A stretch of DNA of 49,418 nt. Source: a bacterium. GTDB lineage: Bacteria; Bacteroidota; Bacteroidia; NS11-12g; UBA955. The notes below the pieces were generated by a model. It was not told where the DNA came from and did no database searches. It saw only the letters and a list, made by a program, of their open reading frames with translations. This document shows positions 8,668 to 39,700 of this stretch, one piece after another. Where the stretch lies: the NCBI GenBank assembly GCA_029945665.1, contig JAQSCZ010000016.1, forward strand, positions 1 through 49,418. Reading direction: 5' to 3'. Position 1 is the first letter of the stretch. Each line of letters begins with the position of its first letter. The translations under genes and the position numbers were made by a program.

Positions 8668-8790
8668 ATGGTAAAAAAAAATACAAAGGTAATAATCATT
8701 GCAATTGATAGCACTTTCGAGATAAAACAATCCAGAATTGGTAAAACAGCTTTTAACAATGCGCTGAAAGGAGTTAATAACTCCAAATGA
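8668..8790 (+). CDS. 40-aa small protein coupled to the primase gene
   Basis: This frame starts on the base after the stop of the 69-aa gene and ends in an ATGA overlap with the primase-helicase start (8787). It is basic at the N-terminus with a short beta-like stretch (KVIIIAIDSTFEIKQSRIGK). The tight packing on both sides argues that it is translated. No family is recognised. Confidence 0.4.
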   Translation: MVKKNTKVIIIAIDSTFEIKQSRIGKTAFNNALKGVNNSK

Positions 8791-14410: not shown

Positions 14411-17400
14411 TTAATATTTGTTAATTTCTAAAATACCAATAATTGCTATTTCAGACAAATCATTCACACTTGAAATACTAATAGTTGGCTCATTATTTGA
14501 AACACTATGCAATAATATTTCGGTCATTGGAAGAAAAGTTCCAGGGGGTGTATGTTGGCTTACTTCTAATTTACGAATGGTGCAATTGGTATCGTATGTA
14601 TCGTTTATCGATTTATGATGTACTAAGCAAAGATTGTTTGCAGCTTTGCTGTAATCTGTTGTATGGTTAAGAATTAGCCAACTATCAGCATCGTAAAGCG
14701 GTAACAAGGCATTGCCTTTTACCTGCACTACAAATTGAGTGCTTAAATAATTGCTTGCAATTATTGGCACTTCTAACCAACCATCGGGCTTTGCAGTCTT
14801 TTGGTTTTTTATGAAATTCTTATATGCCTTTTCTGGTGAGTATGCAGGTAGGTATTTAATAAACCTATCTTCAGTAGGAGCATCTGCCAATAATGTTGCT
14901 TTAGATTGATGTTTTGCAAATGCACTTTCTGCCTCGGTTATGAACTTTTCAAAATCCCAATAATCATAACCCATTTTATCCATTTGGTTAGAAAATACCA
15001 ATAAGCCTTTGTAGCCTGTTGTATGTTCATCACCGGGTATTTGTTCTAATCTTTTTAGCAAAGCATTTTTCTTATGGTCGGCAAATACTTCACCTTTGGT
15101 TTCAACTATATAAAACTGACCATCTTTGAATAAAAGAAAATCGGGATAATATTTTTTTGAGCCGTACTCAAAAAATACGTTGCGTTGGTTACGAACCCAA
15201 AAAGGTTTATTATCTGCTGCAACTTTTTTAAGTATCACATCTAAGTAATCTGCAAAATGAAATTCGGTGTAACTATCAAACTTATCATAATCGTACACTG
15301 ATTTTTCATACCCATAGAAATGCACTTGTGCATCTATCAATTCTAATGATTTTGCTTTGTCCTTAATCTTCAAACGAAGTTTATTTTCAACTAATTCATC
15401 AGGAATTTTTATTTCATAATCTTTAAAGTAGGTAGGTAAGTAAAAACTATCTTCTGCCTGTATTTCTCTAAAGTCTAAATTGAAATAATCCTTCTCAATT
15501 TTGTTACGGTAATAATTACAAAAAGCATCCCTAAACAAATTGAAAGCAAGTGTATCGTCAGCATCATCAATACGGTAGTATTGCAAGCCTATTTGATTGA
15601 ACTTACTTATATAGTTTTTAAATGCTGTCTTTGATGTTTCTGTATCGGGCAAACAAGGCAGGTTCTTTAGAACCCTGCCGTAAATGGTTTTCGTGTCTTT
15701 ATCTGTTATGGTTAAAGTGGTGGGAACACCACCACCCTGTTGTATTTGTTTGTGATATATTTCTTTGTCTGAAAAAACATCTACCTCTACAAAGAACCTA
15801 TCAGGTCGGTACTTTAAAAAGCGTTTAATTGTATCGTTTTCGCCTTCAAAGCAATTATCATCAATGAACCTGTTTACAATAGTTTCAGCATCTTTAATTA
15901 AGCCTATTAAATCTACTTCGGGTTTACGTTTAAAATCTGCCCTTATTCTTGGTATGCTTTTGTTTTTGAGTAGGTCGGACTTTGCCCGGTTTGTTACTGG
16001 TGATTTTTCTTTGTCAAAACTTAGGTACTTATTGTTTAAGCCAAATTCTTTTTGAATAGCCAATATTACTTCCTCAAAGTTTTTCCCCTGGTCGCAGACG
16101 ATGTGTAATTTTTCTGCATTTGCTTTTAGAATATTGGTATCATCGTCAAACTCCCTTTTATCTTTATTGAGCCTTACACCTCTACCTATAATTTGCTTTA
16201 CTGATGTTTTAAAATCGGAATTATTATCATTGATTACTGCCATTGAAAAGATGTTTGGTAAATCTATCCCTTCATCTAATCGCTGCATATAAACAACTAC
16301 CTCCACTTCGTTCTTACGGATATTTAAAAACTTCTTTTCGGTTTCTTTATCTGAATTACCATAATAGAATATTGTGGTATCAGCAACCTGCTGTATGTCT
16401 TGCCTTAGCTTTAAAATATTGCTTTGGTATTGTGTTTTGTATTGCTCTGTAAGCAGTGATGTAATTTCTAAATCTTGTTGTTGTATCTTCTGAAGTATTA
16501 TTTCAATGTTTTCAAGGTCGGAGGATAACTCGGACTTGATATAATTGAAAACCTTTTGAGTGTAAATAGTTTCGTTCTTAACCTTTACAAATGATATAGG
16601 CTTTATGTTGGTGCTTTTTGGGTCTAACTTTATTGCTTCTCTTTTCAATAGATGAATGAGAAACAATGTGATTAGTTTTAGTTTTTCAGATTGTGCAATT
16701 TCATCTTTCCTTGCTTTGGTTTCACCTGCTAATGCAACTGCCCTAACTAACTTGCCGTGTCCATCTGCTAAAAACCGTTTGATGTCGTATTTATAAACGA
16801 TGGTTTGATTTTTTTTATCTTGGCCTCTAACATCTTCTACTGCTGTTGCTGTAAACTCTAATGTGGCAGTAGGCAAAAAATTATGTATAATTTTTTTGGC
16901 TACGGGGCTTTGATGATGGTGTGCTTCATCGGTAATTATTACCAACTTTTTATCTTGCAAAAACTTCTTTATGCTGATGCTGTTCCCATCTTCATCTTTC
17001 CATACTGCATTTTCCCATGTCTTTTGAGTGTTTGAAGCATTTGTACCAAACTTGCTAATGTTGAAAATGAAAATGTTTGCCTCTTTGGTGTCATCAAAAA
17101 AGAGATTTTGAGAATAGTTATCGCCTGTAATTAGATTAAATGTAAAAGGAGTATCATCAGCCCAAACACTTTCAAAATTACCTACTTCAAAATTTCGTAT
17201 TGTCTTTTGGTAAATGTCGGTACTGGCTGGGGTAATGATTAGAAAGTTTTTGATACCAAACTTTTGATTTAAGAAATAGATGCTTGCACCCATCAACATA
17301 GTTTTACCCGAACCTGTTGCCATTTCGTAAGAAAGGAATGGTGTTTTTGATTTACTGGCCTTGTCTACTTCTTCTAATAAGTCTTTCTTTTCGGGCTTGT

Positions 17401-17635
17401 TATCAGAACATTTAAGTAAGTAATCCAATATGTATAAAGCCTCCATTTGATAGTAACGCAAAGGATGCTTGGTAATACCGTTTTCAATATTATTGAAAAT
17501 GGCATAATCGGATGTTGCAAACAAATTACTTGATTGCATAACCCTTTCAGTATTGTATCGGCTTACAACATCATTGAGCAACTTTCTATGTTTCTCAAAA
17601 TATGTGGAGCTTATATTTTTTGATGCTTTAGCCAT
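14411..17635 (-). CDS. res: Type III restriction endonuclease subunit (Res) with unusual S24-like C-terminal extension
   Basis: A 1074-aa helicase-nuclease. The P-loop 'YEMATGSGKTMLMG' lies at ~103-116, a DEAH box 'VIITDEAHHHQS' at ~235, and 'IIGRGVRLN' is motif VI. A PD-(D/E)xK nuclease follows, 'YYPDFLLFKDGQFYIVETKG' being the catalytic core (~830). These are the standard parts of type III Res, which cleaves after ATP-driven communication between unmodified sites. The last ~150 residues are additional: 'VVQVKGNALLPLYDADSWLIL' resembles the S24/LexA 'VxGDSMxPxxxDGDxxxV' signature, but the Ser is Ala and the later Lys is Arg, so it is probably a catalytically dead regulatory or sensor domain. 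Two bases separate it from mod. Confidence 0.9.
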   Translation of the reverse strand: MAKASKNISSTYFEKHRKLLNDVVSRYNTERVMQSSNLFATSDYAIFNNIENGITKHPLRYYQMEALYILDYLLKCSDNKPEKKDLLEEVDKASKSKTPFLSYEMATGSGKTMLMGASIYFLNQKFGIKNFLIITPASTDIYQKTIRNFEVGNFESVWADDTPFTFNLITGDNYSQNLFFDDTKEANIFIFNISKFGTNASNTQKTWENAVWKDEDGNSISIKKFLQDKKLVIITDEAHHHQSPVAKKIIHNFLPTATLEFTATAVEDVRGQDKKNQTIVYKYDIKRFLADGHGKLVRAVALAGETKARKDEIAQSEKLKLITLFLIHLLKREAIKLDPKSTNIKPISFVKVKNETIYTQKVFNYIKSELSSDLENIEIILQKIQQQDLEITSLLTEQYKTQYQSNILKLRQDIQQVADTTIFYYGNSDKETEKKFLNIRKNEVEVVVYMQRLDEGIDLPNIFSMAVINDNNSDFKTSVKQIIGRGVRLNKDKREFDDDTNILKANAEKLHIVCDQGKNFEEVILAIQKEFGLNNKYLSFDKEKSPVTNRAKSDLLKNKSIPRIRADFKRKPEVDLIGLIKDAETIVNRFIDDNCFEGENDTIKRFLKYRPDRFFVEVDVFSDKEIYHKQIQQGGGVPTTLTITDKDTKTIYGRVLKNLPCLPDTETSKTAFKNYISKFNQIGLQYYRIDDADDTLAFNLFRDAFCNYYRNKIEKDYFNLDFREIQAEDSFYLPTYFKDYEIKIPDELVENKLRLKIKDKAKSLELIDAQVHFYGYEKSVYDYDKFDSYTEFHFADYLDVILKKVAADNKPFWVRNQRNVFFEYGSKKYYPDFLLFKDGQFYIVETKGEVFADHKKNALLKRLEQIPGDEHTTGYKGLLVFSNQMDKMGYDYWDFEKFITEAESAFAKHQSKATLLADAPTEDRFIKYLPAYSPEKAYKNFIKNQKTAKPDGWLEVPIIASNYLSTQFVVQVKGNALLPLYDADSWLILNHTTDYSKAANNLCLVHHKSINDTYDTNCTIRKLEVSQHTPPGTFLPMTEILLHSVSNNEPTISISSVNDLSEIAIIGILEINKY

Positions 17636-17637
17636 AA

Positions 17638-19506
17638 TTATTTTTCTAATTCTGCGAAAATTGCGTTAGGAATTTTTACTACTTCTAAATCATCGGGCTT
17701 ACTGTCATAAGCAATCTCAATACCTCTGTTGGTAAAAATATTTATATACTCCGGGGAGTATTTCTTTTTTACTGTTTTATAGATTGATTGCATTTCTTCG
17801 TAGGATAGTGTTTCTAACTTTCCTTTAGGCTCATTTAAGGTTATTACAGCAACTCTTTTCTTTGTGCCAATGGTTTGAACACCAACCAACGGTTGGTGCT
17901 TCTTATCGGTAAATAATTCGCCTTCCTTAAAGTCAATTGAGGTATCAATAATGTAGTCGTAAGAAGATAAAAAGCTTTCCTGTATAAATTCTTTGCCTAA
18001 GCTCCAATTAAAATCACCTGTACCATCTTCATTTAATCTAATGATACTTTCGCCTAAGTGATAATATTTGAATGAGCCACCGCCTTGCCAGTTTGATGAA
18101 TTAGTAATTCCTGTTTTGTCTTTCCCTGCTAAAACAAGTTTAAGCCTTTCAATAATAACAGTATCAGCATGAGAACCCACCTCAACACCTAACCATTTTC
18201 TATTCATTTTGTGCGAAGCTGCAAACGTAGTGCCTGAACCACCAAAAATGTCTAATACAAAATCGCCTTCCTCCGATGCTAATTTTAATACTCTTTCTAA
18301 TAAACCCTCTGGCTTGGGATTATCAAATACTTTTTTACCAAATAGTTTTTCTAAATCTTGTGTGCCATTTGTAGTAGTTGGTAAATCAGTCCAAAGTGCA
18401 GGATTAGGATAATCAGCTTCTAAAATTTCATCAAGCCATAGTGTAGTGGGTGTTGTTCCTTTTCCTTCTGCATCAACCCAAAATCTTTTTAATTGTGGCT
18501 TCGTTTTACCTTGCTTCCCAAACACAATTCTGTTATCTGCAAGTAGCTTTAAATATTCCTTTTCTTCTGTTCTCCAACATCTACCACTTGGCGGTAAATG
18601 ATTTACCCCTGTGTTTGGATTGTGGATGAGATAGGTTAAATTAGGACGTAAATTTGGAGCATCAAAAGGGTCAGCAATCCATTTGCCTCTTGGATCATTA
18701 TCTGGGTTTGAAAATTTATCTTCGTTTGCATCTAATTTGAAATCTGCTTTGTTATTTACTTCAATATTTTTTGCATAAAGCAGAATATGATTAGTAGAAA
18801 GGGAAACAAACGTATCGTTTGAAACTGATTTTCTACTCTGCCAAACTATATCACCTAAAAAATTACTCTTTCCAAATATTTCATCCATCAACAACTTGCA
18901 ATGAAATGTTGCATTATCATCAAGAATTATAAAAATATATCCATCTTCCCTTAAAATTTCATGTATTATAACAAGCCTATCCCTCATTAAAGTAAGCCAT
19001 GATGAAAGTTCTAAATTATCATCATAGTTTAAAAACGCCTTACCAGTATTATATGGAGGGTCAATGAAAACAACCTTTGGTTTTTGTAATTCGGGTTTAT
19101 TAGACAGAAGTTTTTTAATAGCATTTAATGCTAATAAATTATCCCCTTTTATAAGTATGTTTTCAATTGAAGCATCGTCTTTTGAAAGTTCCTCAATTGT
19201 ATATTCTTTTACTATACCGGGCAATGAACCAGCTTTGTCATTTGCAACTGCATTAAATATCTTTTGAAAATTAAGTGGTCGGGCTTCCTTTACTCTTATG
19301 TCGTTTCTATCAACCCAATATGGTTTCAAGCCTCTGCCTTCCTCGTCTATTATTTCATAGAAAAGTGCTTCATCTTTGTTTACCCAATTTATTTTAGGTG
19401 CAGGTATATCCGTAGCCGTTTTTGTATCTGCTTCGGAACGAAGTAGAATAGCTTTTTGTTTGTTGTACCAGTCTAATGATAAACTGCCCTTATATTGCTT
19501 TGCCAT
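17638..19506 (-). CDS. mod: Type III DNA adenine methyltransferase (Mod)
   Basis: A 622-aa site-specific DNA methyltransferase. The catalytic motif IV 'VVFIDPPYNTGKAFLNYDD' comes first (~150) and the SAM-binding motif I 'VLDIFGGSGTTFAASHKMN' later (~420). This beta-class order and the DPPY sequence are typical of N6-adenine Mod subunits. Between them is the variable target-recognition region. Mod methylates one strand of the recognition site, protecting host DNA, and is needed by Res for recognition. Target sequence not predictable. It is cotranscribed with res (2-bp gap) and lies 115 bp downstream of the helicase-nuclease gene. Confidence 0.92.
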   Translation of the reverse strand: MAKQYKGSLSLDWYNKQKAILLRSEADTKTATDIPAPKINWVNKDEALFYEIIDEEGRGLKPYWVDRNDIRVKEARPLNFQKIFNAVANDKAGSLPGIVKEYTIEELSKDDASIENILIKGDNLLALNAIKKLLSNKPELQKPKVVFIDPPYNTGKAFLNYDDNLELSSWLTLMRDRLVIIHEILREDGYIFIILDDNATFHCKLLMDEIFGKSNFLGDIVWQSRKSVSNDTFVSLSTNHILLYAKNIEVNNKADFKLDANEDKFSNPDNDPRGKWIADPFDAPNLRPNLTYLIHNPNTGVNHLPPSGRCWRTEEKEYLKLLADNRIVFGKQGKTKPQLKRFWVDAEGKGTTPTTLWLDEILEADYPNPALWTDLPTTTNGTQDLEKLFGKKVFDNPKPEGLLERVLKLASEEGDFVLDIFGGSGTTFAASHKMNRKWLGVEVGSHADTVIIERLKLVLAGKDKTGITNSSNWQGGGSFKYYHLGESIIRLNEDGTGDFNWSLGKEFIQESFLSSYDYIIDTSIDFKEGELFTDKKHQPLVGVQTIGTKKRVAVITLNEPKGKLETLSYEEMQSIYKTVKKKYSPEYINIFTNRGIEIAYDSKPDDLEVVKIPNAIFAELEK

Positions 19507-19621
19507 AATTAATTATTTTCTCTTTTTAATTTTTCAAATTCCCAATTCCATCTATTAGGATGAACCATTACAATTATCAATAGACAACTTAATATGTATT
19601 TGATTTTTTTCATAATAAGCT

Positions 19622-22342
19622 TTACTTTTTGGTTGTTTTGAACCTACAAGCACAAGTAGGGTCGTTACAGGTTTTCTCTAAATTATTGCCTCTTATATCA
19701 TTTGCCGAATTACGGATTTTCTCTTTCATGGTATCTAAATCTTTTGTGCTTAATTCGGTTCTGTATGGTTCGTTTTTATCTAAATTGTAAATCTCTAAGA
19801 AGTCGGCATTTTCTCCTGTTAGGGCTTTGTAACCTAAGGCGTATAATTGTAATTGGTCAATGGTTGCCAAATACTCCTGTGCTTTTTCGGTACTCTTAAA
19901 GTCAATGATTGTTTTCTCTACTGTGCCATCTTGATTTTTCTTTTTGATTAAATCCATTTTACCATTTACCAAAATTCCATCGCCTAAGTCTAATTGTATA
20001 TCCTGTTCGGCATACTCAATGTTTTTAAACTCATTCAAATTGCTATCATAGTAGATGTTTACGGCCTGTTCTGCTTTATCACTCATGCTTTGTTCTATGG
20101 TAGGTATGGCATAAGGAAAATGCAAATGTTTTTGCAATAGTGCTGGCAATTGTTCTTTGGTAATTATGTTACCCTCTAAAAATTCTCTGTGTATTTCCAT
20201 TAGTGCATGATGTATTGAAGCACCATAACCAATTCTTGCCCCGAAGCTGGACTGAAAGCCGTAAAAGCTTTCAAACTTGAACCTGTAAGGACAATCAAAG
20301 AATGCTTTAAGTAAAGAGAAATTGAGTGAAATATTTGCAATCTCTAAAGATGAAGCAGGTGGTAGTTTAGCCCTTTCTGAATAATCTCTATCCAATGAAC
20401 TAAAAGCATAAGTTGACTTACGAACCTCTGAACCAAAAATACTTTCCTTGCCCTGCTGCCTACCATCTGGAGCCCTACTAATCATTAGGAATTTCTTTGA
20501 CCTTGTAATGGCTACATACATTAATCTTCTTTCATCTTCTTCACCAGGGAAATATCTATCCACATCAATAATTAAAACCTTGTCAATGTGATGCCACAAC
20601 TGTTTGCCACCGGGTTGTTTTGTTGGTAGATAATTTTTATTTAAACCGGGTACAAATACTACTGGAAATTCTAAGCCTTTTGATTGGTAGATACTCATTA
20701 TTTGCACCGCATTTGGTGTTTTGTAAGTATTGTTCAGCCAACCTTCGGAATAATTATCAGTAGCGGAATAGGTAAGGAAATTTAAGAAGGTAGCAATTTT
20801 GTACAATGGATCGGACTTGTAGTAAATGGTTTCAAAATCATAAATGATTTTTGAGAACATACCTAAATTATAAAAAATAACTTCTGCGGTACTGTAGCCA
20901 ACTGCTTCGGGGTGTTCTTCGCTTGGAAAAATATCTTCCCGTACACCAATAATATCAATGAAATCAGTAAAGAAAGTTTGAAAATCAAACCTTTCATAAT
21001 AACTGTTTGAATTGGCAATGTGCTTATCTAAAAAATCAACTCCCTTTTCTAAATTTTCATCAGTAATAAGTGGACTTAAATTTTGCCAATAGTCTTTTAA
21101 AACTCCTTTATCAATTTGATTGTATAGGTATTGAAATATGGCTTGTGATGCCCTTACTTCTAATCGTTGAAATAAATTGTTTATGCCTGTAATCACAAAA
21201 GGAATACCTGCTTGTGTAAATGCTTCAACTATTGCTTCTGCCTTTTTCCACTTACGGACCAACACAACCATATCGGAATAGTTAAGCCCTCTTTCTGTTG
21301 TATCTTCTTTGTCTTTAAAAGCTACCCCACGAAGTTGATTTATCTTTTCAATGATAAAGGCGTTTTCATCTGCAACACTTGTAAACTGATTGTACAAAAT
21401 ATCGCCTCTTTCATACTGCTGAAAGCCTTTAGCGTTCATTACTTTTGGCAGCCTTACCGTGTTGTTAGTAATGCTTTTAATTGCTACATCTACAACTGCA
21501 TTTGTAGAACGAAAGTTATCTTCTAATGTAACTGAATGAACATTATCGTACCGGGTAGTAAACTGCTGAATGTAGTTGATGTGTGAACCCCTCCATTGAA
21601 ATATTGTTTGGTCATCATCGCCTACAACACAAATATTTGCACCCAAATTGTACAACTCCCTTACTATGCTTTCTTGAACTGGATTTACATCTTGGTACTC
21701 GTCCACAATTAAGTAACCAATATCACGGGTTATTTTGCTCCTAAAATTCTCATCAGATTGGAGGCAATGCACAGCATCCGACATAATCATTGTGAAGTCA
21801 AAGTAGCAATGTTTTCTAAGTACCGTTTCGTACTTATGCAGGGCTTCAAAAAGGTTTGGTGGCACATCGTCCCTGTTGTGAAATTGTGCTTCTCTAAGCA
21901 GGCTCATAAGGGCTACAAACCGCCCTGTATCTTTAAACCTTTCCATCGAAAGGTCTTGCATCCCAATTTGTTTGAAATTCTTATCTACAAACAGTTTTAG
22001 TTTTATTTCATCTAAAACACTGAATTTTTGATATTCGTATTTGTACTCCTGTAAAGCATTTAAGCACCAGGAATGTATTGTGCCTACATACATATCTGCA
22101 ATGCCTTGTGTATCGGGCAACTGTTCTTTGCAAAGTTTTAATATTCTTGCCTGTAATTCTCCTGCTGCTTTTTCGGTGTATGTAAATGCAATTATTTTAG
22201 ATGGGTGAACTCCTGTTTTGAGAATTTCAATTATACGCTGTGATATTACCTGTGTCTTACCCGACCCGGCACAAGCAATTATTTGAAGATTGCGGTTTAA
22301 AGTGGAGATTGCCTCCTGTTGTCTTGGTGTGTAATTTGGCAT
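19622..22342 (-). CDS. UvrD/PcrA-like superfamily 1 helicase fused to a RecB-like Fe-S nuclease
   Basis: A 906-aa protein. SF1A helicase motifs are clear: I 'IACAGSGKTQVISQR' (~22), II 'LIVDEYQDVNP' (~210), III 'VVGDDDQTIFQWRGS' (~240), and VI 'RLMYVAITRSKK' (~610). The last ~250 residues are a PD-(D/E)xK nuclease: 'FDCPYRFKFESF', then 'VNGKMDLIKKK' and 'KTIIDFKST'. It ends with a Cys cluster (C..C.C in 'TCNDPTCACRF') which, with the earlier Cys of the domain, suggests an AddB/RecB-type Fe-S cluster. It unwinds and degrades DNA ends. It leads the leftward operon with mod and res, so it probably acts in the same defence. It has its own palindromic upstream region (22375-22401). Confidence 0.85.
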   Translation of the reverse strand: MPNYTPRQQEAISTLNRNLQIIACAGSGKTQVISQRIIEILKTGVHPSKIIAFTYTEKAAGELQARILKLCKEQLPDTQGIADMYVGTIHSWCLNALQEYKYEYQKFSVLDEIKLKLFVDKNFKQIGMQDLSMERFKDTGRFVALMSLLREAQFHNRDDVPPNLFEALHKYETVLRKHCYFDFTMIMSDAVHCLQSDENFRSKITRDIGYLIVDEYQDVNPVQESIVRELYNLGANICVVGDDDQTIFQWRGSHINYIQQFTTRYDNVHSVTLEDNFRSTNAVVDVAIKSITNNTVRLPKVMNAKGFQQYERGDILYNQFTSVADENAFIIEKINQLRGVAFKDKEDTTERGLNYSDMVVLVRKWKKAEAIVEAFTQAGIPFVITGINNLFQRLEVRASQAIFQYLYNQIDKGVLKDYWQNLSPLITDENLEKGVDFLDKHIANSNSYYERFDFQTFFTDFIDIIGVREDIFPSEEHPEAVGYSTAEVIFYNLGMFSKIIYDFETIYYKSDPLYKIATFLNFLTYSATDNYSEGWLNNTYKTPNAVQIMSIYQSKGLEFPVVFVPGLNKNYLPTKQPGGKQLWHHIDKVLIIDVDRYFPGEEDERRLMYVAITRSKKFLMISRAPDGRQQGKESIFGSEVRKSTYAFSSLDRDYSERAKLPPASSLEIANISLNFSLLKAFFDCPYRFKFESFYGFQSSFGARIGYGASIHHALMEIHREFLEGNIITKEQLPALLQKHLHFPYAIPTIEQSMSDKAEQAVNIYYDSNLNEFKNIEYAEQDIQLDLGDGILVNGKMDLIKKKNQDGTVEKTIIDFKSTEKAQEYLATIDQLQLYALGYKALTGENADFLEIYNLDKNEPYRTELSTKDLDTMKEKIRNSANDIRGNNLEKTCNDPTCACRFKTTKK

Positions 22343-22374
22343 ATTTCTAAACGCTATTTCTTTTTAGTTTTTGT

Positions 22375-22401
22375 AAAATTATTATTGCAAATAATAATTT
22401 T
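22375..22401 (-). promoter_or_regulatory. Perfect 12-bp inverted repeat upstream of the helicase-nuclease/mod/res operon
   Basis: AAAATTATTATT and AATAATAATTTT flank a GCA centre, 33 bases upstream of the start of the leftward operon. It could be an operator that delays restriction until methylation is established. As an AT-only stem with a T run it could also act as a weak rightward terminator. Confidence 0.4.
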
Positions 22402-22541
22402 TTTGTTATTTATAAATGTTTCGGACTTGGTATATGTTAGTTGATAAGAAGCTGAATAAATTATTTAACCACTGAACCGCCAATTCCTTGTATGCGCTGT
22501 TATGGACTGAGCTTCTTTTGGTCGTTATTTTTTTATATTCG

Positions 22542-23267
22542 CTATACACTTGTCTGTAGCTGTTGTTCCGGCATTTCGTCATACGTCTTGCCGTTTAAAA
22601 GTCTACCGTTTGCTTTTTTATTTCGTCCACCCCATTGTTTAAAAAAGAATGCAACATCTGATTTTTCACATTGCTCTTGAATGTCTAAAACCCAGTCAGC
22701 GTCCATTGGTCTGGGTCTGTGTCCGCTTTCTCCACCTACAATCACCCAGTCTATTTTCTTTAAGTTTAGTTTTGGTAGAGGTCCAATTAGAGGTTCGCAA
22801 GATAAAAATTTAACTCTTGCTTTTGTCTTCCGAAGAAAATCAATTCGGTCAATTACACTTTCATTTTCTACCGAAACTCCCATCCAAATGTTATGTGTCC
22901 ATTTTAGTTCCTTTTGAACTTCAAAAAGTCTTTCTGCTCTTTTCGTCAGAATTTGAAAAACGTGATTTGGGTTGTCGTTCATTACCTTAAAGACTTTCTT
23001 AATAAAATCAAGCGGAATGTCTTTGTGAAAAAGGTCACTCATTGAGTTTACGAAAACAATTTTTGATGATTTCCAAGTGTAAGGTATGTTGAGTTGGTCG
23101 GGATGGGTTCTCACTTTAAAAGCATCTTTGTATTTTTCAACACCCATTGCTTTTAGTCTTTTGGACATTATTTCTGCATAGCAGAATTTACAGCCACTTG
23201 AAATTTTTGTGCAACCCGTTGTCGGGTTCCAAGTCATTTCAGTCCATTCTATTGATGATTGAGCCAT
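22542..23267 (-). CDS. DUF5131 (phage Gp37/Gp68-like) three-Cys-motif protein
   Basis: A 241-aa protein from ATG 23267, chosen because it starts right after the previous gene. A longer frame to 23315 would overlap that gene by 47 bases. The N-terminus has the signature '[16 protein letters not shown]' (C-x6-C-x2-C), which resembles a radical-SAM-type iron-sulfur site. '[15 protein letters not shown]', '[10 protein letters not shown]', 'WMGVSVEN', '[10 protein letters not shown]' and '[16 protein letters not shown]' are conserved blocks of the family. The reaction is unknown. The family almost always pairs with TcmP, as here, and occurs in phages and mobile elements. Confidence 0.88.
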
Positions 23268-23268
23268 T

Positions 23269-24105
23269 TTAGTTATTATATTTTTTGACAATATCACTTC
23301 CGATTTTTTCGGCAATTTTATTGTTCGAAGTTAAGAATAAATGATACATTATTGAGTTACTTGAATTTTTTAATTCGTATGGTTTAGAAACAAATTCAAA
23401 AACTTCTTTCAGTCTTGATTTATAAAGTTTTGCGGAATTTTCTATAGCATCCTTTTCTTTCTCAATAAAAGTTATGTCTTCAAATAGAGTCGCCGTTTTT
23501 TTGTAAAAGCGTTTTTCAATTTCTATTCGACTTAATCCCAGAAAAATTTCAAGCTTTTCTAACCAAGCATCAGAAATCTGTCCATTCTTTTTAAGTAGTC
23601 TGTTTACACCAAGTCCGGTAGGAACAAGTATCCACATATCAATTGGAAGTCCCCTAAGGCTTTCAATTGAACGCCATTCAACTTGCATTCCACAAGGGTC
23701 AACGTATGCAAGGGTTCTAACATTTTTATTCTTTGGGTCTCGAAGAAAATTTGCTAGGTCAATAATTTTTTTGTTGCAGTCGTCACACTTTATATAAATT
23801 GTTTTACTCGGAAATGCATTTTTTGTATTCTCTTCAAGTAAAGCAAAATTATTTGGGTCTTTCTCAACGAAATAATAGCTGTCAAAAGGTCTAGGCTCTG
23901 AGATTTCAATAATCCGTCTTGCAGCTCCAACAGTTATTTCAATATCTACTTTTTTATCCTTAACAATAAAGCCACTGCCCGCAAAACCGTCAAAATACAT
24001 AAGTTTAAAAAACTTACGGTCTTTCATTATATTTAAATATGCTTTTGCATATTCAACCAAAATTTCAATTTTTATTTTTGTCCAATCTCCACCAAAATTG
24101 TTCAT
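23269..24105 (-). CDS. tcmP: Three-Cys-motif partner protein TcmP
   Basis: A 278-aa protein paired one base upstream of the DUF5131 gene, the standard TcmP arrangement. '[11 protein letters not shown]' near the N-terminus, '[19 protein letters not shown]' and '[20 protein letters not shown]' resemble class I methyltransferase-fold motifs and are typical of TcmP. The pair's biochemical function is not established. The context with a restriction module suggests nucleic-acid modification or defence. Transcription is leftward, probably from the 24106-24459 gap. Confidence 0.85.
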
Positions 24106-24416: not shown

Positions 24417-24453
24417 AGTTGTTTTGCTCTACTTATTGGTAGCGAAAGCAACT
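24417..24453 (+). promoter_or_regulatory. Long stem-loop immediately before the first late gene
   Basis: AGTTG-TTTT-GCT-(CT)-AC pairs with GT-AGC-GAAA-(G)-CAACT around a TTATTG loop, giving about 14 bp with two small bulges. It ends 6 bases before ATG 24460. It could control translation or mRNA stability of the late operon. Confidence 0.45.
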
Positions 24454-24459
24454 TATCAC

Positions 24460-25128
24460 ATGTCAGAAAGTAAATCTTGGTTATTAAAACTTGCAATTGG
24501 AGCTGCTGTTACCGGAGGTATTGGTGTATTTATATCCAAAGCTGCCAACTTTAAGACCAACTTTAAATTCGATTTGTCCAATTACAGAGCGCAAAAGTTA
24601 ACAGGTATAAGCACTTTAAGCACCGTTGCAGAATGTAAAATAACCAATGGCAATAGCCTAGGGCTTAATATTACCAACCTTTTTGTACAAATTCAATACC
24701 TGGAGAATAAGTTCTGGTATGATTTAGCAAAGTCACCCATTATAGTGCCTTCGCTTACTGTACCTGCAAATAAGGTATTCAATACTTCCATTACTTTAAA
24801 TTATTCTCTACTCAGCTTTCCATACTTCCTGCTTGCCAAAATGTTTACAGGAACTCCTCTGAAAGTAAAAGTAATTTCAAAATTCGATATAGCTGGTGTT
24901 ACGCAAACAGTGCCAATCGAATTAGAATTGGCAATACCATCTGCAATTTCATCAATTATTAAAAACTTATTGCCCAAGAATGTTAGTGGACTTGGCGAAG
25001 CTAATGTTGGTAGGCTTATAAAAACTGCCATCAGGAAAAGGATAATGCAACCGCCACAAAGGTTAACTATACCTAATCAGATGCAAAAAAGGTTGGTTCA
25101 AAATAAAAAAATATTACTTCATGTTTAA
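24460..25128 (+). CDS. Late membrane protein with LEA2/WHy-like beta domain and GLG motif
   Basis: A 222-aa protein from ATG 24460, chosen because the upstream TTG lies inside the stem-loop. A membrane span (~8-26, 'LAIGAAVTGGIGVFISKA') is followed by a ~115-residue beta-rich domain ('AECKITNGNSLGLNITNLFV', 'PSLTVPANKVFNTSITLNY', 'LKVKVISKFD') resembling type-2 LEA/WHy domains. The tail contains VSGLG at ~171, a variant of the recurring site, then a basic segment (KTAIRKRIMQPPQRL). It leads the late module and overlaps the next gene by 8 bases (ATGTTTAA). I infer a virion or membrane-complex component. Confidence 0.6.
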   Translation: MSESKSWLLKLAIGAAVTGGIGVFISKAANFKTNFKFDLSNYRAQKLTGISTLSTVAECKITNGNSLGLNITNLFVQIQYLENKFWYDLAKSPIIVPSLTVPANKVFNTSITLNYSLLSFPYFLLAKMFTGTPLKVKVISKFDIAGVTQTVPIELELAIPSAISSIIKNLLPKNVSGLGEANVGRLIKTAIRKRIMQPPQRLTIPNQMQKRLVQNKKILLHV

Positions 25129-27448
25129 AGGACTAGGATATACAGCAGGTAAAAAACGCATTATAAAGGATGGCAGTCGATACAATTCCTTAATAGTTGG
25201 AATGGTAAAGAACACCAACCCTATTATTAATCAAGCAGCAGATACCTATGACACTGTTAAGCTTATAAAGGATATTGTAAATGATACCCTGCCTCAAACT
25301 AAAAAACTTTCTGATTTTCTTTGGAGCGAAGCCAATGGTGATCTAAACAGGTTTCTATTCCTAATATGGAAATTTTTATACGATCATGTGGACTATGAAC
25401 TCGATTCTGCCGATATGGAGCAATTGAGAGAACCTGTGAGAACATGGAGGGATAAAAAGGCAGATTGCGATTGTTATAGTTTATTTATTTCAAGTGTCCT
25501 TACCAATAAGGGTATTCCACATTCATTCCGTATTGTAAAAATGAATGGGAAAAGCTATTTCCAACACATTTACATAGTTGTACCTAAAAATGGTAAAACC
25601 TTCGATGGAGATGATAATAAAACGTATTACACCCTCGATTGCGTTGTGGATAACTATAACTACGAGCCCCCGGGCATTACATTTAAAACTGATATAAAAA
25701 TGACAATACAAGTTCAACGATTAAACGGATTTGGAAATACTGACAAAGGATTTCAGTGTATTCATGGCGCAGAATTTACCACTTTTGGAAACTTAAGAGG
25801 ATTAGGTTTAGCTTTAGGATGCTGCGAAGCCGATAAAGTTGCGGCCCTTCATAGCGATTTTAACAATCGACTGAAACAATTTTTTATAAATTCCAGAGAA
25901 GCAATGGTTAAAAGCCCAAGTTATTTACCTGGTAAAGCTGCTCAATACATTCGCGATGTAAATGGATTGCTTTCAGTATGGAATGATGAGAATGCCAAAA
26001 TAAACGCACTGGAAACCTTATCAAAGGTATGGAGTGATGAAGCAGACAATCTGGAAGCTGCCAGAGCAATAGGCAGAACCATTGGATTAAGGGAAGCTCG
26101 TATCAAAAAGGTTAAAGGTGGACCGTATTTGCGTTTTAAACGTGGTGTTACTGTTTTACCAAATGGCATTATCAAATCTCCAGTTGAAGGTGAAATATCC
26201 GTATTACCTCATGCTCACCGTATGGGAGATATACAAGGTCAGGATTTGGGTAGCATATTTTCAGGGCTTGGTTCTACTGATGATGATCTGGTTCTATTAG
26301 ATGGTTATCGTGAGGATGATGAACATGATTTATCCGGTGTAGATGGCCCTGAGGATATTGAAGAACATTACCTGATTGAAGGTCTTGATGGATTAGGTAA
26401 AAAAGCTAAAATATCCTTTAAGCCTAAAAACGTATTTAAAGCTGCGACCAAAGCAGTTAAAACTGTCAATAAAAAGGTTATTGACACGCACAAAAAAGTA
26501 GGTAAAAAAATTGTAGCAAAAGCTAAAAAGGATGCTAATAAATTTGTTAAAGTAGCGAAAAAAGTAGGCAAGCTGGTTGTAAAATTCGACCCTTTGGCAT
26601 CTACGATCAGAGCAGGATTACTATTCTCTTTGGCTTTAAATATGAATAAATCAGCAGAAAAACTGATTGTAGCCTATGGTTCAAAAGAACAGGCCGCCAA
26701 AATAGGAATAGGCGAAAGCGACTGGAAAGCTGCAAAAGACAAGTTGGCAAAAGTAGAAAAACTGTTTGCTGATAAATTGCAAGGAAGTAGAAACAATATG
26801 AGAAAAGCAATTTTTAAAGGCAAGAAGGCAAAACGTATTGCCAATAAAATGGGCTTAAATGGTTTGGGAGTTATTGCAGCAACTACTATTACACTTGCTA
26901 CAACTATTATTACAGCAGTTGCAGGTATCATTAAGTCATTGGCATCCCCAAAAGTAAAGGATATGCCAGGCGATAATGTCAATCCCGAAGATCTACCTGA
27001 AGTTGATGTTAATGCAACAGATGCAAGTTTACCTGAAAATGATTCAACTGATAATTCTAAACCGCAAGAAAACGGAACAATTGTAAATGATATTGAAAAT
27101 AGTTCTGATAAAAAATATCAGGATCATAGTTCAACATCAGATATAACTAATACAGATGCAAAACAAGACAGTAAGCAAACGGATATCACAGACAGTAATT
27201 CTGAAACTGATCAAAGTAGTCGTGATGGTGATGACAAAAAAAACAACACCGGTTTGATTGTAGGAATTTTAGCAGTACTGGGAGTCGGAGTCGCTGCTGT
27301 TGCACTAAAACCTAAAAGATTAAATGGCTTAGGCTGCAATGATAAACCAAATATAGGAGAAGTGGAAACGCCAACAAACAGTAATGATGTAACTGAATTA
27401 TCCGGAAGCGGAAATCGCAAAAAGCGGACTATCACAATGGACGTATAA
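25121..27448 (+). CDS. Polyprotein-like late protein with transglutaminase-like cysteine protease domain and seven GLG-type sites
   Basis: A 775-aa protein. Residues ~70-190 fit the transglutaminase-like fold: catalytic candidates are C116 in 'ADCDCYSLFISSVLTNKGIP', H149 in 'YFQHIYIVV' and D173 in 'YTLDCVVD'. Sites of the form x-x-G-L/F-G lie at 2-6 (FKGLG), 201-205 (LNGFG), 225-229 (LRGLG), 380-384 (FSGLG), 422-426 (LDGLG), 579-583 (LNGLG) and 734-738 (LNGLG). They separate distinct segments: protease-like, unknown, acidic linker (384-425), Lys-rich basic segment (426-580), a TM helix (584-606) with an acidic Ser/Asp-rich spacer and second TM (711-729), and a tail. The layout suggests a precursor cut at GLG sites, with the protease domain as candidate maturase (inference). 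It lies in the late module next to the capsid candidate. Confidence 0.65.
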   Translation: MFKGLGYTAGKKRIIKDGSRYNSLIVGMVKNTNPIINQAADTYDTVKLIKDIVNDTLPQTKKLSDFLWSEANGDLNRFLFLIWKFLYDHVDYELDSADMEQLREPVRTWRDKKADCDCYSLFISSVLTNKGIPHSFRIVKMNGKSYFQHIYIVVPKNGKTFDGDDNKTYYTLDCVVDNYNYEPPGITFKTDIKMTIQVQRLNGFGNTDKGFQCIHGAEFTTFGNLRGLGLALGCCEADKVAALHSDFNNRLKQFFINSREAMVKSPSYLPGKAAQYIRDVNGLLSVWNDENAKINALETLSKVWSDEADNLEAARAIGRTIGLREARIKKVKGGPYLRFKRGVTVLPNGIIKSPVEGEISVLPHAHRMGDIQGQDLGSIFSGLGSTDDDLVLLDGYREDDEHDLSGVDGPEDIEEHYLIEGLDGLGKKAKISFKPKNVFKAATKAVKTVNKKVIDTHKKVGKKIVAKAKKDANKFVKVAKKVGKLVVKFDPLASTIRAGLLFSLALNMNKSAEKLIVAYGSKEQAAKIGIGESDWKAAKDKLAKVEKLFADKLQGSRNNMRKAIFKGKKAKRIANKMGLNGLGVIAATTITLATTIITAVAGIIKSLASPKVKDMPGDNVNPEDLPEVDVNATDASLPENDSTDNSKPQENGTIVNDIENSSDKKYQDHSSTSDITNTDAKQDSKQTDITDSNSETDQSSRDGDDKKNNTGLIVGILAVLGVGVAAVALKPKRLNGLGCNDKPNIGEVETPTNSNDVTELSGSGNRKKRTITMDV

Positions 27449-28113: not shown

Positions 28114-28833
28114 ATGAACGAACAAAGATTCACCCAACAACAGTCTCAAAATGCACTAACTGCTATTGCGACTGAATTGCAATTATCCGGTAGAACCGAT
28201 ATTGCTACCGCCATCACTTCAGGCAGAAAACGTGCAGTTGAAAACACACACTACTTCCGTAAACCCGTAAGTACAACAGCCGGAGATTTAACAGGTACGA
28301 TTAAATTAGTTGAAGAAACTGATGTATTCGCTAAAGGAAAAATCAGCTTATCTGCAGGTAAATTACCTTCAGGTACTATTATGGCGATTACCAAAATCGC
28401 TTTGGAATATTCATCTCACGCTTCAGATACCGATGCTACAACAAAAGTATTTAACAACAATATTTTTGATGCCGAGGCTTATGCAGCAGGTACTGTAGAT
28501 TTAAACTCAACAGAAACCGGTAACCAGTTGCTTGGTGTGAGTTCAAGACGTGTGCCTATTAAATTGCTTAACGCCACTTTCGTCCTTTTTCATGGTACAA
28601 ACCCCATTGCAAAAGGTATTGTAGGAGATTTCTTCAAAGTTGGCGAGAAGGACTTTTCTGAAGGATTAGGCGCAGAAAACAAATCACTTTTCAAAACCAT
28701 TCAGCCACTGTATGTTGCCGATGATACTGCAAAGTTCGATTTAGTGATCGATATGCCCTCCACTGGTTCAGCAGGTTCCTTAATCCACTACTTAGGATTC
28801 AAACTGTTTGGTATGGAAATTATCGACAGATAA
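28114..28833 (+). CDS. Candidate major capsid protein (beta-rich, 239 aa)
   Basis: A helical N-terminus ('ALTAIATELQLSGRTDIA') precedes a long beta-rich body rich in Thr/Ser/Gly, ending 'HYLGFKLFGMEIIDR'. It has an A-rich leader (28085-28113) and is the only late gene with its own strong terminator directly behind it (28866-28908), consistent with very high expression. A GLG site variant (SEGLG, ~189-193) lies in it. No database family can be recognised by eye. The capsid call rests on position, size, composition and terminator, so another abundant structural protein is possible. Confidence 0.5.
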   Translation: MNEQRFTQQQSQNALTAIATELQLSGRTDIATAITSGRKRAVENTHYFRKPVSTTAGDLTGTIKLVEETDVFAKGKISLSAGKLPSGTIMAITKIALEYSSHASDTDATTKVFNNNIFDAEAYAAGTVDLNSTETGNQLLGVSSRRVPIKLLNATFVLFHGTNPIAKGIVGDFFKVGEKDFSEGLGAENKSLFKTIQPLYVADDTAKFDLVIDMPSTGSAGSLIHYLGFKLFGMEIIDR

Positions 28834-29318: not shown

Positions 29319-29624
29319 ATGTGTCTATTTAAAGACTATGGCTATGAAGTAGTAGTAAATCAATTGAGTGGTGATAATACCGTTTTACCATCTAAAGGCA
29401 GATTTGATGTTCGTGTTGAAAATACTGGAGAAACATCTCTGTTTATAGGAGGTGTTGGTGAAATCGTACCGGGTAGTGAAAAGTGCATTGGTATTTCACA
29501 AGTGCCATGTGCAGTTGATTTAGCTATTACTTATGCTTCAGATGAAAGTGGTACACTTAAAAAACAATGCACTGTTTATTCAAACAGATTGGTTTGTATG
29601 GACTGGAATTGCTTGAATGGCTAA
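29319..29624 (+). CDS. 101-aa beta-rich, Cys-containing late protein
   Basis: Beta-strand pattern with six Cys ('GSEKCIGISQVPCAVDL', 'KKQCTVYSNRLVCMDWNCLNG'). It overlaps the next gene by 8 bases (ATGGCTAA). Family not recognised. Position suggests a minor virion protein. Confidence 0.45.
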   Translation: MCLFKDYGYEVVVNQLSGDNTVLPSKGRFDVRVENTGETSLFIGGVGEIVPGSEKCIGISQVPCAVDLAITYASDESGTLKKQCTVYSNRLVCMDWNCLNG

Positions 29625-30426
29625 GAGCATTGAAGATATAGCCAATGTTGCCAAACTAAGTGGTTATTTAAGCATAACCACAGAAAGTGGCAATGTAATA
29701 GCCGAAAAGGTATCTGCAAAAGATTATCCGAACCTATCTGAAACACTAACAGAGTATTCCAAAAAATCGCCTTTAAAAATAAGTATTTTCAAAAAACACC
29801 TAAATAAATATAACCTATTGAATGATGAACCTTTTTTAATAGCTAAAACCGAAACCGAACCAACCCCTAACCCTCAAAAAAAAACCGCAATGATCAGTGA
29901 TAAACCATCAGGTAATTCTGAACAATACATTTGGCAGAATATGCTGAATGAAAAGCAGAAAGAAGTTAATAAACTTGAAAGAGTTTACGATAAGCTAGTT
30001 GATAGGTATGAAGAAAGCCAAACCCAAAGAGGACAACTTCAGGCCACTATTAATGAACTTACTGTTAAAATAAATACTGCTGAAAAAGAAAAGGAACTGG
30101 CATTACTTACCGCCAATGCCACTAACAAACAGTCTTTAAACGGATTTGTTACAGATGCTTTAAAACCCGAAACACTCACCGGCATTGCTGCTGTATTCTC
30201 AGCGATAAAAAACGGAACTATGCCAGCTACTTCTTCAAATTCTATGGTGAGTGACCTTACCCAACAGAAAAAGGACAGTTTGGTTGCGTTTAAAGATGTT
30301 TTGGTAAAACTAACAGATAAGGAAGCAATAAAACTCGCTGTAATAGTTGCCAACTTATCCAAAGACCCGGAAGATATTGAAGAAGCCTTTTCAAAATTAA
30401 ATTTAGATAACCTAACCGAACAATAA
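29617..30426 (+). CDS. Coiled-coil late protein, 269 aa
   Basis: The N-terminal ~80 residues are basic and helical, then a Pro-rich linker with a KKK run ('TEPTPNPQKKTAMI'), then a coiled coil (~108-170, 'KQKEVNKLERVYDKLVDRYE' ...). The end is helical and acidic. It could be a scaffold or internal virion protein. The family is not recognised. Start chosen at ATG 29617 in an 8-base overlap. Confidence 0.5.
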   Translation: MAKSIEDIANVAKLSGYLSITTESGNVIAEKVSAKDYPNLSETLTEYSKKSPLKISIFKKHLNKYNLLNDEPFLIAKTETEPTPNPQKKTAMISDKPSGNSEQYIWQNMLNEKQKEVNKLERVYDKLVDRYEESQTQRGQLQATINELTVKINTAEKEKELALLTANATNKQSLNGFVTDALKPETLTGIAAVFSAIKNGTMPATSSNSMVSDLTQQKKDSLVAFKDVLVKLTDKEAIKLAVIVANLSKDPEDIEEAFSKLNLDNLTEQ

Positions 30427-36705: not shown

Positions 36706-39700
36706 ATGTTAAGTCATTCTGAAAAGGATTTTTGTGAAAAAGTAAAGGCGCTTATTCTTGATAATATCCAGAATGGTGGTAAATCGGCACGAAAGGATAG
36801 TCTTGAAAAATTGGCTAAAACCTTTGGCATTGATGACCAAACAGAAGTAAAAGAACTGGCTGAATATGCCATTGTGCAAATGGCCCGTAAAATTGCCATG
36901 CAACCGGATCAACCACATGATCAGTATGCGAAAATTGTTGAACTTTATAATTCTCAGCCCACTTTATCCCATAGAAGTAGTACCAGTATGATTTATCAGC
37001 AATATAGCACACCAGCTCCTATTGCTTTTATTGGTGGTTTGTGGTGTATGGATAAAAATGAATTAGGGAGTATTAAACGCAGTGGGGGCTTCACTAAAAA
37101 TCATTTTGCACCATCAAAATCCACATATAGTCCAAATGATTATTCAAAACCCCTTGTTTTAGAACCAAGTGCCGGAAACGGATTGTTTACCACTGCTTTT
37201 AATCCTCAGAATGTTTGGGTAAACGAAATAGATAAATTCAGGGCAAAAATATTAAGCGATCAGGGTTATTACAAAGTAACTGAAATGGATGCAAGTATTC
37301 CAGCCAATTTTGAAAAGCTATTCGGTAAATTCGATATCGTTACTTCAAATCCTCCCTTCGATTCATTACAGCACGATATAACCTTCAATGGAAGTGAATT
37401 TGGCGTACTCGATCATTTAATGGCAGCAATAGCACTTGAATGTTTAAAGCCTAATGGAAAGGCGGCTATAATAATTGGCGGTCATACTGCATACGATAAT
37501 AAGGGAAGAGTGCAGGCAGGGAAGAACAGGAAATTTATTTCTTACCTCTACCAGAATTATAATGTTGAAGATATTATCAGTATTAACTCAAAACAATTAT
37601 ACACCAAACAAGGAACAGGTTTTAATGTAAGACTTATACTTATAGATGGTAAAAAAGCAGTTAAAAGTGGTTTTCCTCCCCTATTCCATGATTTAGATAT
37701 TGAAAAACAAAAAATAGTCAACACGTTTGATGAATTATACAGCAGAATTTTTCCAATGAAACAACAAAATACAAAAACACTTGAGCTGGAAGCAGAGGCA
37801 TTGGTGCTCGAATTAGAGTTAACAAATCTCAATGGATTTAATGGAGCTTCACCAATGAAATATCCAATACAGCCAATAACTTACAATATCCTGAATGGAC
37901 CAGGCGATGTCGATTTACCTGATTACGTGCCTGAAATAAAACTAACGTTTAAAAAAAGTACCGCAAAGCTCATACCTGCTGACTTTACTATAAACAATAG
38001 TCAGTCAATTAACTCACTTATAAAAAAGTTATGGCAGAGAAATACAATTGAAGTTGCCGAGAGATTTTTTATAATATTCCTTTCCAGGGCAAACAAGCCT
38101 ATTGGCTGGTTGAATGTTAGTCTTGGAACAAAAACAGGCACAATGGTTGACCCTGCACAGGTAGTTGCAGTAGCCGCTAAAACAAATTGCTCTGGAGCTA
38201 TCATTGCTCATAATCATCCTTCAGGGAATTTAAGAGCAAGTGAAGCCGATTTACAATTGACAAGAAAATTAAAAGAAGCTCTTAAACTTATTGATGTCGT
38301 ATTATTGGATCATTTAATTGTGACAACCGATGGCTATACTTCGTTTGCAGATGAAGGTTTGTTTGGACTTACTGGCTTAGGGATGGCATATACTCCGGTA
38401 TCGGATGCTTGTAATACCTTGAATGTAGATGTTTCAGACAGTATGGCTTTTGAAACGCATGAAGCATTGCGTAAAATGCAAGTTGAAGTGGGTGGTGATG
38501 TAACAGAATTTGTGAGAGAAAAATTAAATTATCCTACCAAATTGGATTTATGCAAGGCTTTAATGGCCGAACAGATTGATGGAGTTGCAACGGCCATTTA
38601 CAATATTGAAAAAAGAGATAATTTTTTGATTATCGGTGATCAGACAGGAATCGGCAAAGGCAGACAAGCTGCAAGTATTATCAGGTATGGTGTTGAAAAT
38701 AAATTAACACCTGTATTCCTTACCGAAAAGGATACACTCTTTAGCGATATGTACCGGGATTTAATTGATATCGGTTGCGGTCATTATAAACCATTTATTG
38801 TAAATGCCAGGTCTAAAAAATCGAATGTAAAGGGAGAAGATGCCAATGGAAACCAGATTATCATTCACCGTGCTCCAGAGAAAACTTTGCAAAAGGATCT
38901 TATTCTGCACCCAGAGAAAATAAAAGGACAATTTGATTTCATCATGTCCACCTATTCGCAGTTTAATCGCAATGGGATAGTATTAAAAGGTAAAGACAAA
39001 GGACAGGATAAAAGGGATGATAAAGGCAGATTTTTAGAAGCGGTATCGGTTAATAATATTATGATACTCGATGAAAGTCATAATGCAGGTGGTGATTCTA
39101 AAACTGGAAAATTCGTTACCGGTTGTGTCGCTTCATCAAAAGGTGGTGCATTTTTAAGTGCCACATTTGCTAAAACACCTGAAAATATGCCACTGTATGC
39201 TGCTAAAACAGCTTTACAAGATGCCAATATGAAACCGGAAGACTTTATTCAAGCGTTTATTAAAGGTGGTGTAGCATTGCAGGAAGTAATCTCTGCGCAA
39301 TTAGTTGAAGAAGGGCAAATGATACGCAGACAGCGTGTTTTAGGTGATTTAAAAGTATCAAAAATTATTTTAACCGATCAGGCAATTGAACATGCTTCCA
39401 TTGCAGATAAAATAACTGCTGTAATGCGCAGAATTGTTCTTTTTGAAAAAATGTATATTGAGGAAATTGTTGAAAATGCCGATGATGAGTTGGTAACCAG
39501 TCAAGGTTCCGCAGCAAAAGCAGCCGGCGGCAAAGCTGGTGCAACTTCCTCTCCTTATTTCAGCAAACTGTTCAACGTCATTAATCAAATGTTATTCTCC
39601 ATAAAGGCGAAAGAAGTTGCTGAAGAAACAATAAAGGAATTAATGCAAGGCAAAAAAGTAGTTATTGCCTTCTCCAGTACAATGGGTGCATTCCTATCCA

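Follow-up and report, generated by a model that had tools for sequence, protein, structure and literature searches.

The window, that is, the whole stretch of DNA analyzed, is an entire contig of 49,418 bases, and the parent genome is 3.79 Mb. The gene of interest encodes a 775-aa protein with an enzyme domain near its N-terminus and a series of short glycine-centered motifs, called tags here. The features on which the argument draws are as follows.

24424–25128, plus strand: small upstream protein with a hydrophobic N-terminus; no Pfam match
25121–27448, plus strand: ORF of the 775-aa putative polyprotein (ORF list and translation)
25124–25138, plus strand: candidate site FKGLG, residues 2–6, before the domain
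25148–25717, plus strand: transglutaminase-like domain, about residues 10–199 (alignment, model, and structure matches)
25463–25643, plus strand: triad stretch with C116, H149, and D173 (codon mapping and alignments)
25721–25735, plus strand: candidate site LNGFG, residues 201–205, immediately behind the domain
25793–25807, plus strand: candidate site LRGLG, residues 225–229
26258–26272, plus strand: candidate site FSGLG, residues 380–384
26384–26398, plus strand: candidate site LDGLG, residues 422–426, ahead of the basic helical part
26855–26869, plus strand: candidate site LNGLG, residues 579–583, ahead of the hydrophobic segment
27320–27334, plus strand: candidate site LNGLG, residues 734–738, past the last membrane segment
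27488–28036, plus strand: 182-aa hydrophobic protein, candidate substrate, with KLSGLGS (L at residue 93)
28114–28833, plus strand: 239-aa candidate single-jelly-roll major capsid protein (model, structure matches, and co-occurrence)
29617–30426, plus strand: 269-aa probable coiled-coil protein, candidate substrate (three L[NSDTKER]G matches versus 0.42 expected)
36706–42282, plus strand: 1858-aa fusion of a methyltransferase, a RadC/JAB domain, and a strawberry-notch helicase

The initial annotation had placed a 775-aa ORF with a Cys-His-Asp triad here, and both are present: the ORF occupies bases 25121–27448 of the plus strand, with C116 in DCDC, H149 in FQHIY, and D173 as the first D of LDCVVD. 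The triad stretch is bounded by the first bases of codons 115 (25463) and 175 (25643). The order of parts in the protein is the transglutaminase-like domain, a linker, a basic helical part, hydrophobic segments, a C-terminal membrane segment, and a tail. In successive alignments, C116, H149, and D173 are invariant and in the order Cys-His-Asp in 6 of 6, 22 of 22, and then 56 of 56 sequences, and the 56 relatives are 34–45% identical to the window protein. L201, a relative from outside the pattern-found set, reads GIDCDDYSIF and by eye retains the Cys, the His, and the Asp.

Pfam profiles match many of the 56 aligned members, as follows: DUF553 (transglutaminase-like) 47, Transglut_core 16, and Peptidase_C93 two, the last with a best E of 1.2e-4. 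The window sequence itself has no Pfam domain match, Peptidase_C93 included, and PHROGs and PDB sequence searches with the enzyme domain gave nothing useful. The structure prediction proposed in the initial annotation yields a confident transglutaminase-like model, the best solved matches of which are mostly cysteine proteases. The AlphaFold2 model (pLDDT 85.4, pTM 0.80) is folded to about residue 199. Residues 1–5 and 209–230 have pLDDT below 50, and the 201–210 block averages 57. Because these low-confidence ends carry the neighboring tags, the tags flank the folded domain. The top solved match is the putative protease 3kd4 (Z 11.3, 139 residues at 2.8 Å), and LapG entries match at Z 11.0 to 10.1; these rows exceed the bulk of the structure-match rows, which lie at Z of about 8. 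We take 4u65 chain E to be LapG from its incomplete entry title. The lists of solved structures that match feature LapG, TglA, TGases, and PNGases prominently. Foldseek gives a best E of 3.6e-4 and modest TM-scores to LapG, 0.35–0.52. The C5 fold is absent among the solved-structure matches listed for the model, a list that cannot by itself exclude C5. By its triad, its model, and the profile matches of its relatives, the enzyme domain is a member of the transglutaminase-like superfamily.

LapG, a BTLCP protein (Peptidase_C93), is among the best of these matches. It is an endopeptidase with the transglutaminase fold and a C-H-D triad. According to one report, LapG cuts LapA between A108 and A109, and a C135A mutant of LapG is inactive (PMC3032545). 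The fold can thus serve a site-specific endopeptidase. The window enzyme differs from LapG in that the Peptidase_C93 profile finds two of its 56 aligned relatives and not the window protein, and in that it is apparently housed in a phage structural polyprotein.

The second line of evidence is the tags. The initial annotation had credited the 775-aa protein with the largest number of GLG sites, and so it has: GLG occurs six times versus 0.42 expected from composition, a count that none of 20,000 shuffles reaches, and the runner-up among the 36 window ORFs translated is the 1858-aa protein with two. (The 36 are drawn from 42 window ORFs of at least 100 aa; the other six overlap larger ORFs.) The pattern [LIVMF]xG[LIVMFY]G occurs eight times versus 0.40 expected, again with none of 20,000 shuffles reaching the count. 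With these two GLG-type patterns, the excess is limited to the 775-aa ORF among the 36. Seven of the eight matches are the candidate sites listed above; the eighth, at 719, lies within a hydrophobic stretch and is excluded from them. A GLG said to lie at residues 201–205 is in fact LNGFG; the nearest GLG is at 227–229, and another is at 4–6.

Relatives redefine the tag. They carry LSGV, LSGI, LDGL, and similar sequences, so that GLG is a local form, and plain GLG was dropped as the tag. The wider tag is L-[N/S/D]-G-(I/L/V/F). Among gapped residue pairs with no plain tie to the catalytic region, L-x-G is the strongest in 53 non-redundant sequences (359 versus 213 expected). Of 48 non-redundant relatives, a set that includes the window protein, 42 have a strict L[NSD]G just behind the domain; 500 shuffles gave 4.7 on average and never more than 12. 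Six lack it. In two of these, L041 and L195, the enzyme ORF stops ahead of the tag, which falls in the following ORF; L013, L187, and L161 have the variants ISG, LQG, and LRG, and L181 is divergent. At 43 of 48 sites of this first junction, L-x-G is followed by I, L, V, or F, and the final G of the LxGxG form is found in 10 of 48. The tail past the last membrane segment has a tag in 31 of 38 proteins (shuffle mean 5.9, maximum 12) and lacks one in seven. This test covered 38 of 47 proteins, the other nine having no predicted membrane segment, and shorter ORFs fall outside it. Because the proteins counted are homologous, part of the tag excess reflects shared ancestry. Many tags sit in otherwise low-complexity tails; this, together with the spacing rules known for such caps, led us to set aside a reading of LxG as a helix C-cap. 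The K/R-rich tail after the last tag often ends in a short hydrophobic motif such as VALL, KTVKLF, or TITMDV.

First scans with the single sequence found no relative in viral contigs or genome contigs. The sole match among 50,697 phage records is gp34 of phage SSIP-1 (28% identity, E 5e-5; two copies of one genome). Of the 70 genomes of the family, 8 contain relatives, the window genome counted, as do 47 of 395 genomes sampled from one bacterial class (E 1e-10). Seven viral contigs also carry them. Among GTDB genomes, 285 stretches were confirmed from 311 candidates, and the best 80 of the 285 were analyzed. A looser search adds some matches that are ordinary cellular proteins with weak scores.

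The layout of the gene in these relatives speaks to the role of the tags. Three modules can be distinguished, the small upstream protein, the enzyme, and the C-terminal part, and they are encoded as one, two, or three ORFs. The survey covered 88 loci, in 87 of which the enzyme was found by pattern and in one, L201, by reading; L196 is on the same contig as L041 and was omitted. The commonest layout is an ORF for the small upstream protein followed by an ORF for the enzyme plus the C-terminal part. The window's upstream protein presumably resembles LEA14-type proteins. L041, L195, and L201 have a comparable module joined to the enzyme in one ORF. In the first two, the C-terminal ORF has a tag near its start, and in L201 all three modules form a single 836-aa ORF. 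Eight loci (L141, L166, L170, L171, L174, L175, L188, and L194) have a separate C-terminal ORF, and all eight of these ORFs begin MELHRLDG, which is the junction sequence of the fused forms, so that the tag is at residues 6–8 of the separate protein. The eight loci are one clade, and the split is therefore not eight independent events. Three loci, L122, L161, and L199, have short forms, i.e., an enzyme without the long C-terminal part; L181 has a short enzyme ORF similar to that of the eight split loci, and no C-terminal partner ORF was found for it. Together with three ORFs truncated by a contig end, these eight split, two upstream-fused, and three short forms and L181 make up the 17 enzyme ORFs below 370 aa. 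Such variation between one, two, and three chains, with the tag retained at the joints, is as expected if the modules are separate in the particle.

Two genes downstream of the putative polyprotein is the 239-aa candidate capsid protein. The model of this protein (pLDDT 82.4) consists of a helix at the N-terminus and a beta sandwich, and its matches include SPV1 (Z 7.6), HHIV-2 (7.5), HCIV-1 (7.3), SH1 (7.2), and P23-77 VP17 (7.0). Scores of 7.0–7.6 are middling for this model, as unrelated beta proteins score alike, e.g., a monooxygenase at 7.2. No match was found among the phage records, and BLASTP shows no similarity to SSIP-1 gp46, the sole SSIP-1 structural protein compared. The linkage to the enzyme is close: the capsid family is present in 43 of the 395 class genomes, and 42 of these also hold the enzyme (Fisher p 8e-50), a co-occurrence possibly inflated because the capsid profile was built solely from enzyme-bearing loci. 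In the one exception, G271, the capsid gene is close to the contig start. In five class genomes, the enzyme is present and the capsid family finds no match.

Candidate substrates are found among the neighbors. With the looser pattern L[NSDTKER]G, the 269-aa coiled-coil protein stands out among the 36 window ORFs. Families of neighboring proteins were counted with L[NSDTKERQA]G versus locally shuffled sequence, the members of a family being homologous. A coiled-coil family that occupies a similar position in other loci has 64 tags versus 26 expected (27 of 27 non-redundant members), and in most of the members displayed the tags are on both sides of the middle part; BLAST does not join the window's 269-aa protein to this family. 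The enzyme family has 353 tags versus 159 expected; among its 169 members are also copies of the upstream protein, C-terminal parts from split loci, and, probably, some spurious ORFs. Enrichment is likewise seen in four families of hydrophobic proteins adjoining the enzyme (z 2.2 to 4.9) and in two further families (20 versus 9.6 and 15 versus 6.0), and weakly in the capsid family (40 versus 28, z 2.0). Most other neighbor families are near expectation, e.g., 13 versus 13.5, 6 versus 6.0, and 37 versus 37.8. Taken alone, the window's 182-aa hydrophobic protein has a tag count not above chance in shuffles. At two loci (L126, 13295–13957; L134, 13319–14008), a hydrophobic protein has five or six consecutive [DE]L[DT]GL tags in its acidic tail, a run that reads as a possible serial cleavage array.

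The element also encodes a GH108 lysin together with a holin and a CHAP protein. A 1066-aa protein (8787–11987, plus strand) matches DUF3854 and, weakly, a DnaG-type zinc ribbon, and is likely the element's primase-helicase. Between the replication gene and the virion genes is a minus-strand block, 14411–24105, with a type III methyltransferase, a UvrD-like helicase, and a pair with matches to the candidate defence models PDC-M41A/B; a 1074-aa protein adjoining the methyltransferase has helicase-like motifs by eye and no PADLOC match. The block looks like defence cargo of the provirus.

Two viral systems help to place these genes. According to a review, SSIP-1 is a membrane-containing phage with PRD1-adenovirus type architecture and two types of capsid protein (PMC6356626). 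The SSIP-1 particle is tailless. SSIP-1 gp34, annotated as a structural protein, has the same triad and one LNG tag behind the domain; it differs in being 304 aa long and in having no multi-tag C-terminal part. This single clear tag, SLNG, weighs against our main reading. In a scan of 16 SSIP-1 proteins, gp44 is the sole one with many matches to the broad tag, a raw count made without shuffles. By eye, gp34 and gp36 carry RGMG and QGMG where relatives show xGLG, possibly SSIP-1's own version of the tag. SSIP-1 gp43, also annotated as structural, has methyltransferase domains and a ParB domain, and no RadC match.

The other system is adenovirus, whose protease AVP is a protein in its own right and belongs to a different protease clan. 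The window enzyme differs from AVP in being transglutaminase-like and, we propose, housed in its own substrate. AVP, a cysteine protease encoded by the virus, matures both core and capsid proteins, one enzyme acting on several substrates with an 11-residue cofactor taken from the C-terminus of a substrate, and its sites are (M/I/L)XGG|X or (M/I/L)XGX|G (PMC4246237). Five of the seven window tags (LNGFG, LRGLG, LDGLG, LNGLG, and LNGLG) fit the second of these forms at every position; FKGLG and FSGLG do not fit. The likeness is narrower among relatives, which often lack the final G, as the 10 of 48 first-junction sites noted above show.

The gene, its triad, the fold model, the enrichment and placement of the tags, the fission and fusion of modules, and the linkage to a candidate jelly-roll capsid gene are observations; from them we infer that the tags are cleaved, at which bond, by this domain, and when. 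The proposal is as follows. The window would carry a provirus, that of a Bacteroidota phage with no tail and probably with a membrane. The 775-aa protein would be a virion polyprotein, the N-terminal transglutaminase-fold domain of which is a cysteine endopeptidase, with C116 as the nucleophile and H149 and D173 completing the triad. During assembly the enzyme would excise itself and free the C-terminal segments. The cuts would flank the enzyme domain, precede the basic helical part and the hydrophobic segment, and part the tail from the last membrane segment. Further virion proteins that bear L-x-G-(hydrophobic) tags would be processed in trans at those tags, the likely substrates being the hydrophobic 182-aa protein and the coiled-coil protein. 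That is, a maturation protease of the transglutaminase fold is embedded in its own substrate, and on the evidence above we hold this reading to be probable. The initial annotation had already suggested a maturase within its own substrate; the fold and the presence of tags at junctions that some relatives encode separately sustain the idea, and its GLG recognition site proves too narrow and gives way to LxG. 

The most serious alternative cutter is the RadC/JAB domain of the 1858-aa protein, which is metallo-isopeptidase-like. JAB-type peptidases are known to cut after glycine, and BLAST finds RadC in 14 other family loci besides the window element. If RadC/JAB, or else a host protease, cleaved the tags, the transglutaminase domain would be a substrate or have some other role. 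Among the seven viral records (SSIP-1 and six contigs of 25.8–57.9 kb, which may be fragments), however, RadC is found in none and the transglutaminase domain in all seven, and a host protease leaves the close gene linkage unexplained; we consider cleavage by either of these unlikely. Other transglutaminase-fold enzymes act on cell walls or cross-link proteins, and the phage lysins PeiP and PeiW, pseudomurein endoisopeptidases that cut cell-wall isopeptide bonds and are not known as particle proteins, have a transglutaminase-like fold that matches the model at Z 9.8 and 8.3, respectively. Because of this shared fold, the domain could be a virion-borne cell-wall hydrolase that opens peptidoglycan on entry, the tags being processed otherwise or serving to position it, and the structural annotation of the SSIP-1 homologue would suit such a role. 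Yet the element already has its lysin, holin, and CHAP protein, PeiP ranks below the best protease rows and about level with the lowest LapG row, and the domain is flanked by tags that are also present in other proteins. The hydrolase reading is thus improbable.

The tags themselves might be something else, i.e., binding or hinge motifs for capsid or membrane docking or flexible glycine linkers, with an enzyme function unrelated to them. Glycine-rich linkers recur between domains in many proteins, and the ancestry shared by the homologues contributes to the enrichment. Against this stand the specificity of the tag, in particular the hydrophobic residue that follows nearly every first-junction L-x-G, its persistence within tails that are otherwise of low complexity, and its place close to the start of the separate C-terminal proteins of one clade; we find the motif reading rather doubtful. 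Finally, human transglutaminases match the model at Z of about 8, and the domain might be a transglutaminase proper; it might also be an inactive scaffold. Among the structural matches, proteases rank best, and a scaffold is unlikely because the triad is kept in all 56 aligned relatives despite their divergence from the window protein; these last two options are scarcely credible.

Proteolysis has a central part in the maturation of tailed phages, herpesviruses, and adenoviruses. Our preferred reading, a self-embedded transglutaminase-fold protease acting as virion maturase in a tailless phage lineage, is probably a new combination of known kinds. A literature search over titles and the beginnings of abstracts returned no paper that we recognized as describing this protease, and the words "protease" and "transglutaminase" are absent from the passages available of two reviews (PMC6356626, PMC5894146). 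A published evolutionary model of the jelly-roll lineage has the maturation protease enter with the eukaryotic transposable element (PMC6260650).

A wider proposal can be put forward tentatively. The locus may represent a widespread group of single-jelly-roll tailless Bacteroidota phages, undescribed to the extent of our searches, with a transglutaminase-fold protease born inside its main substrate and an adenovirus-like L-x-G-x tag, an independently evolved counterpart of adenovirus maturation. By analogy with adenovirus pVIc, the cationic C-terminal peptide released by the last cut might serve to activate the enzyme or to bind DNA. If true, this would be a clean case of convergence, in which a prokaryotic jelly-roll virus has its own, differently folded maturation protease with similar glycine-centered tags. 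The tags would then predict the boundaries of virion proteins throughout a group found in 47 of the 395 sampled class genomes.
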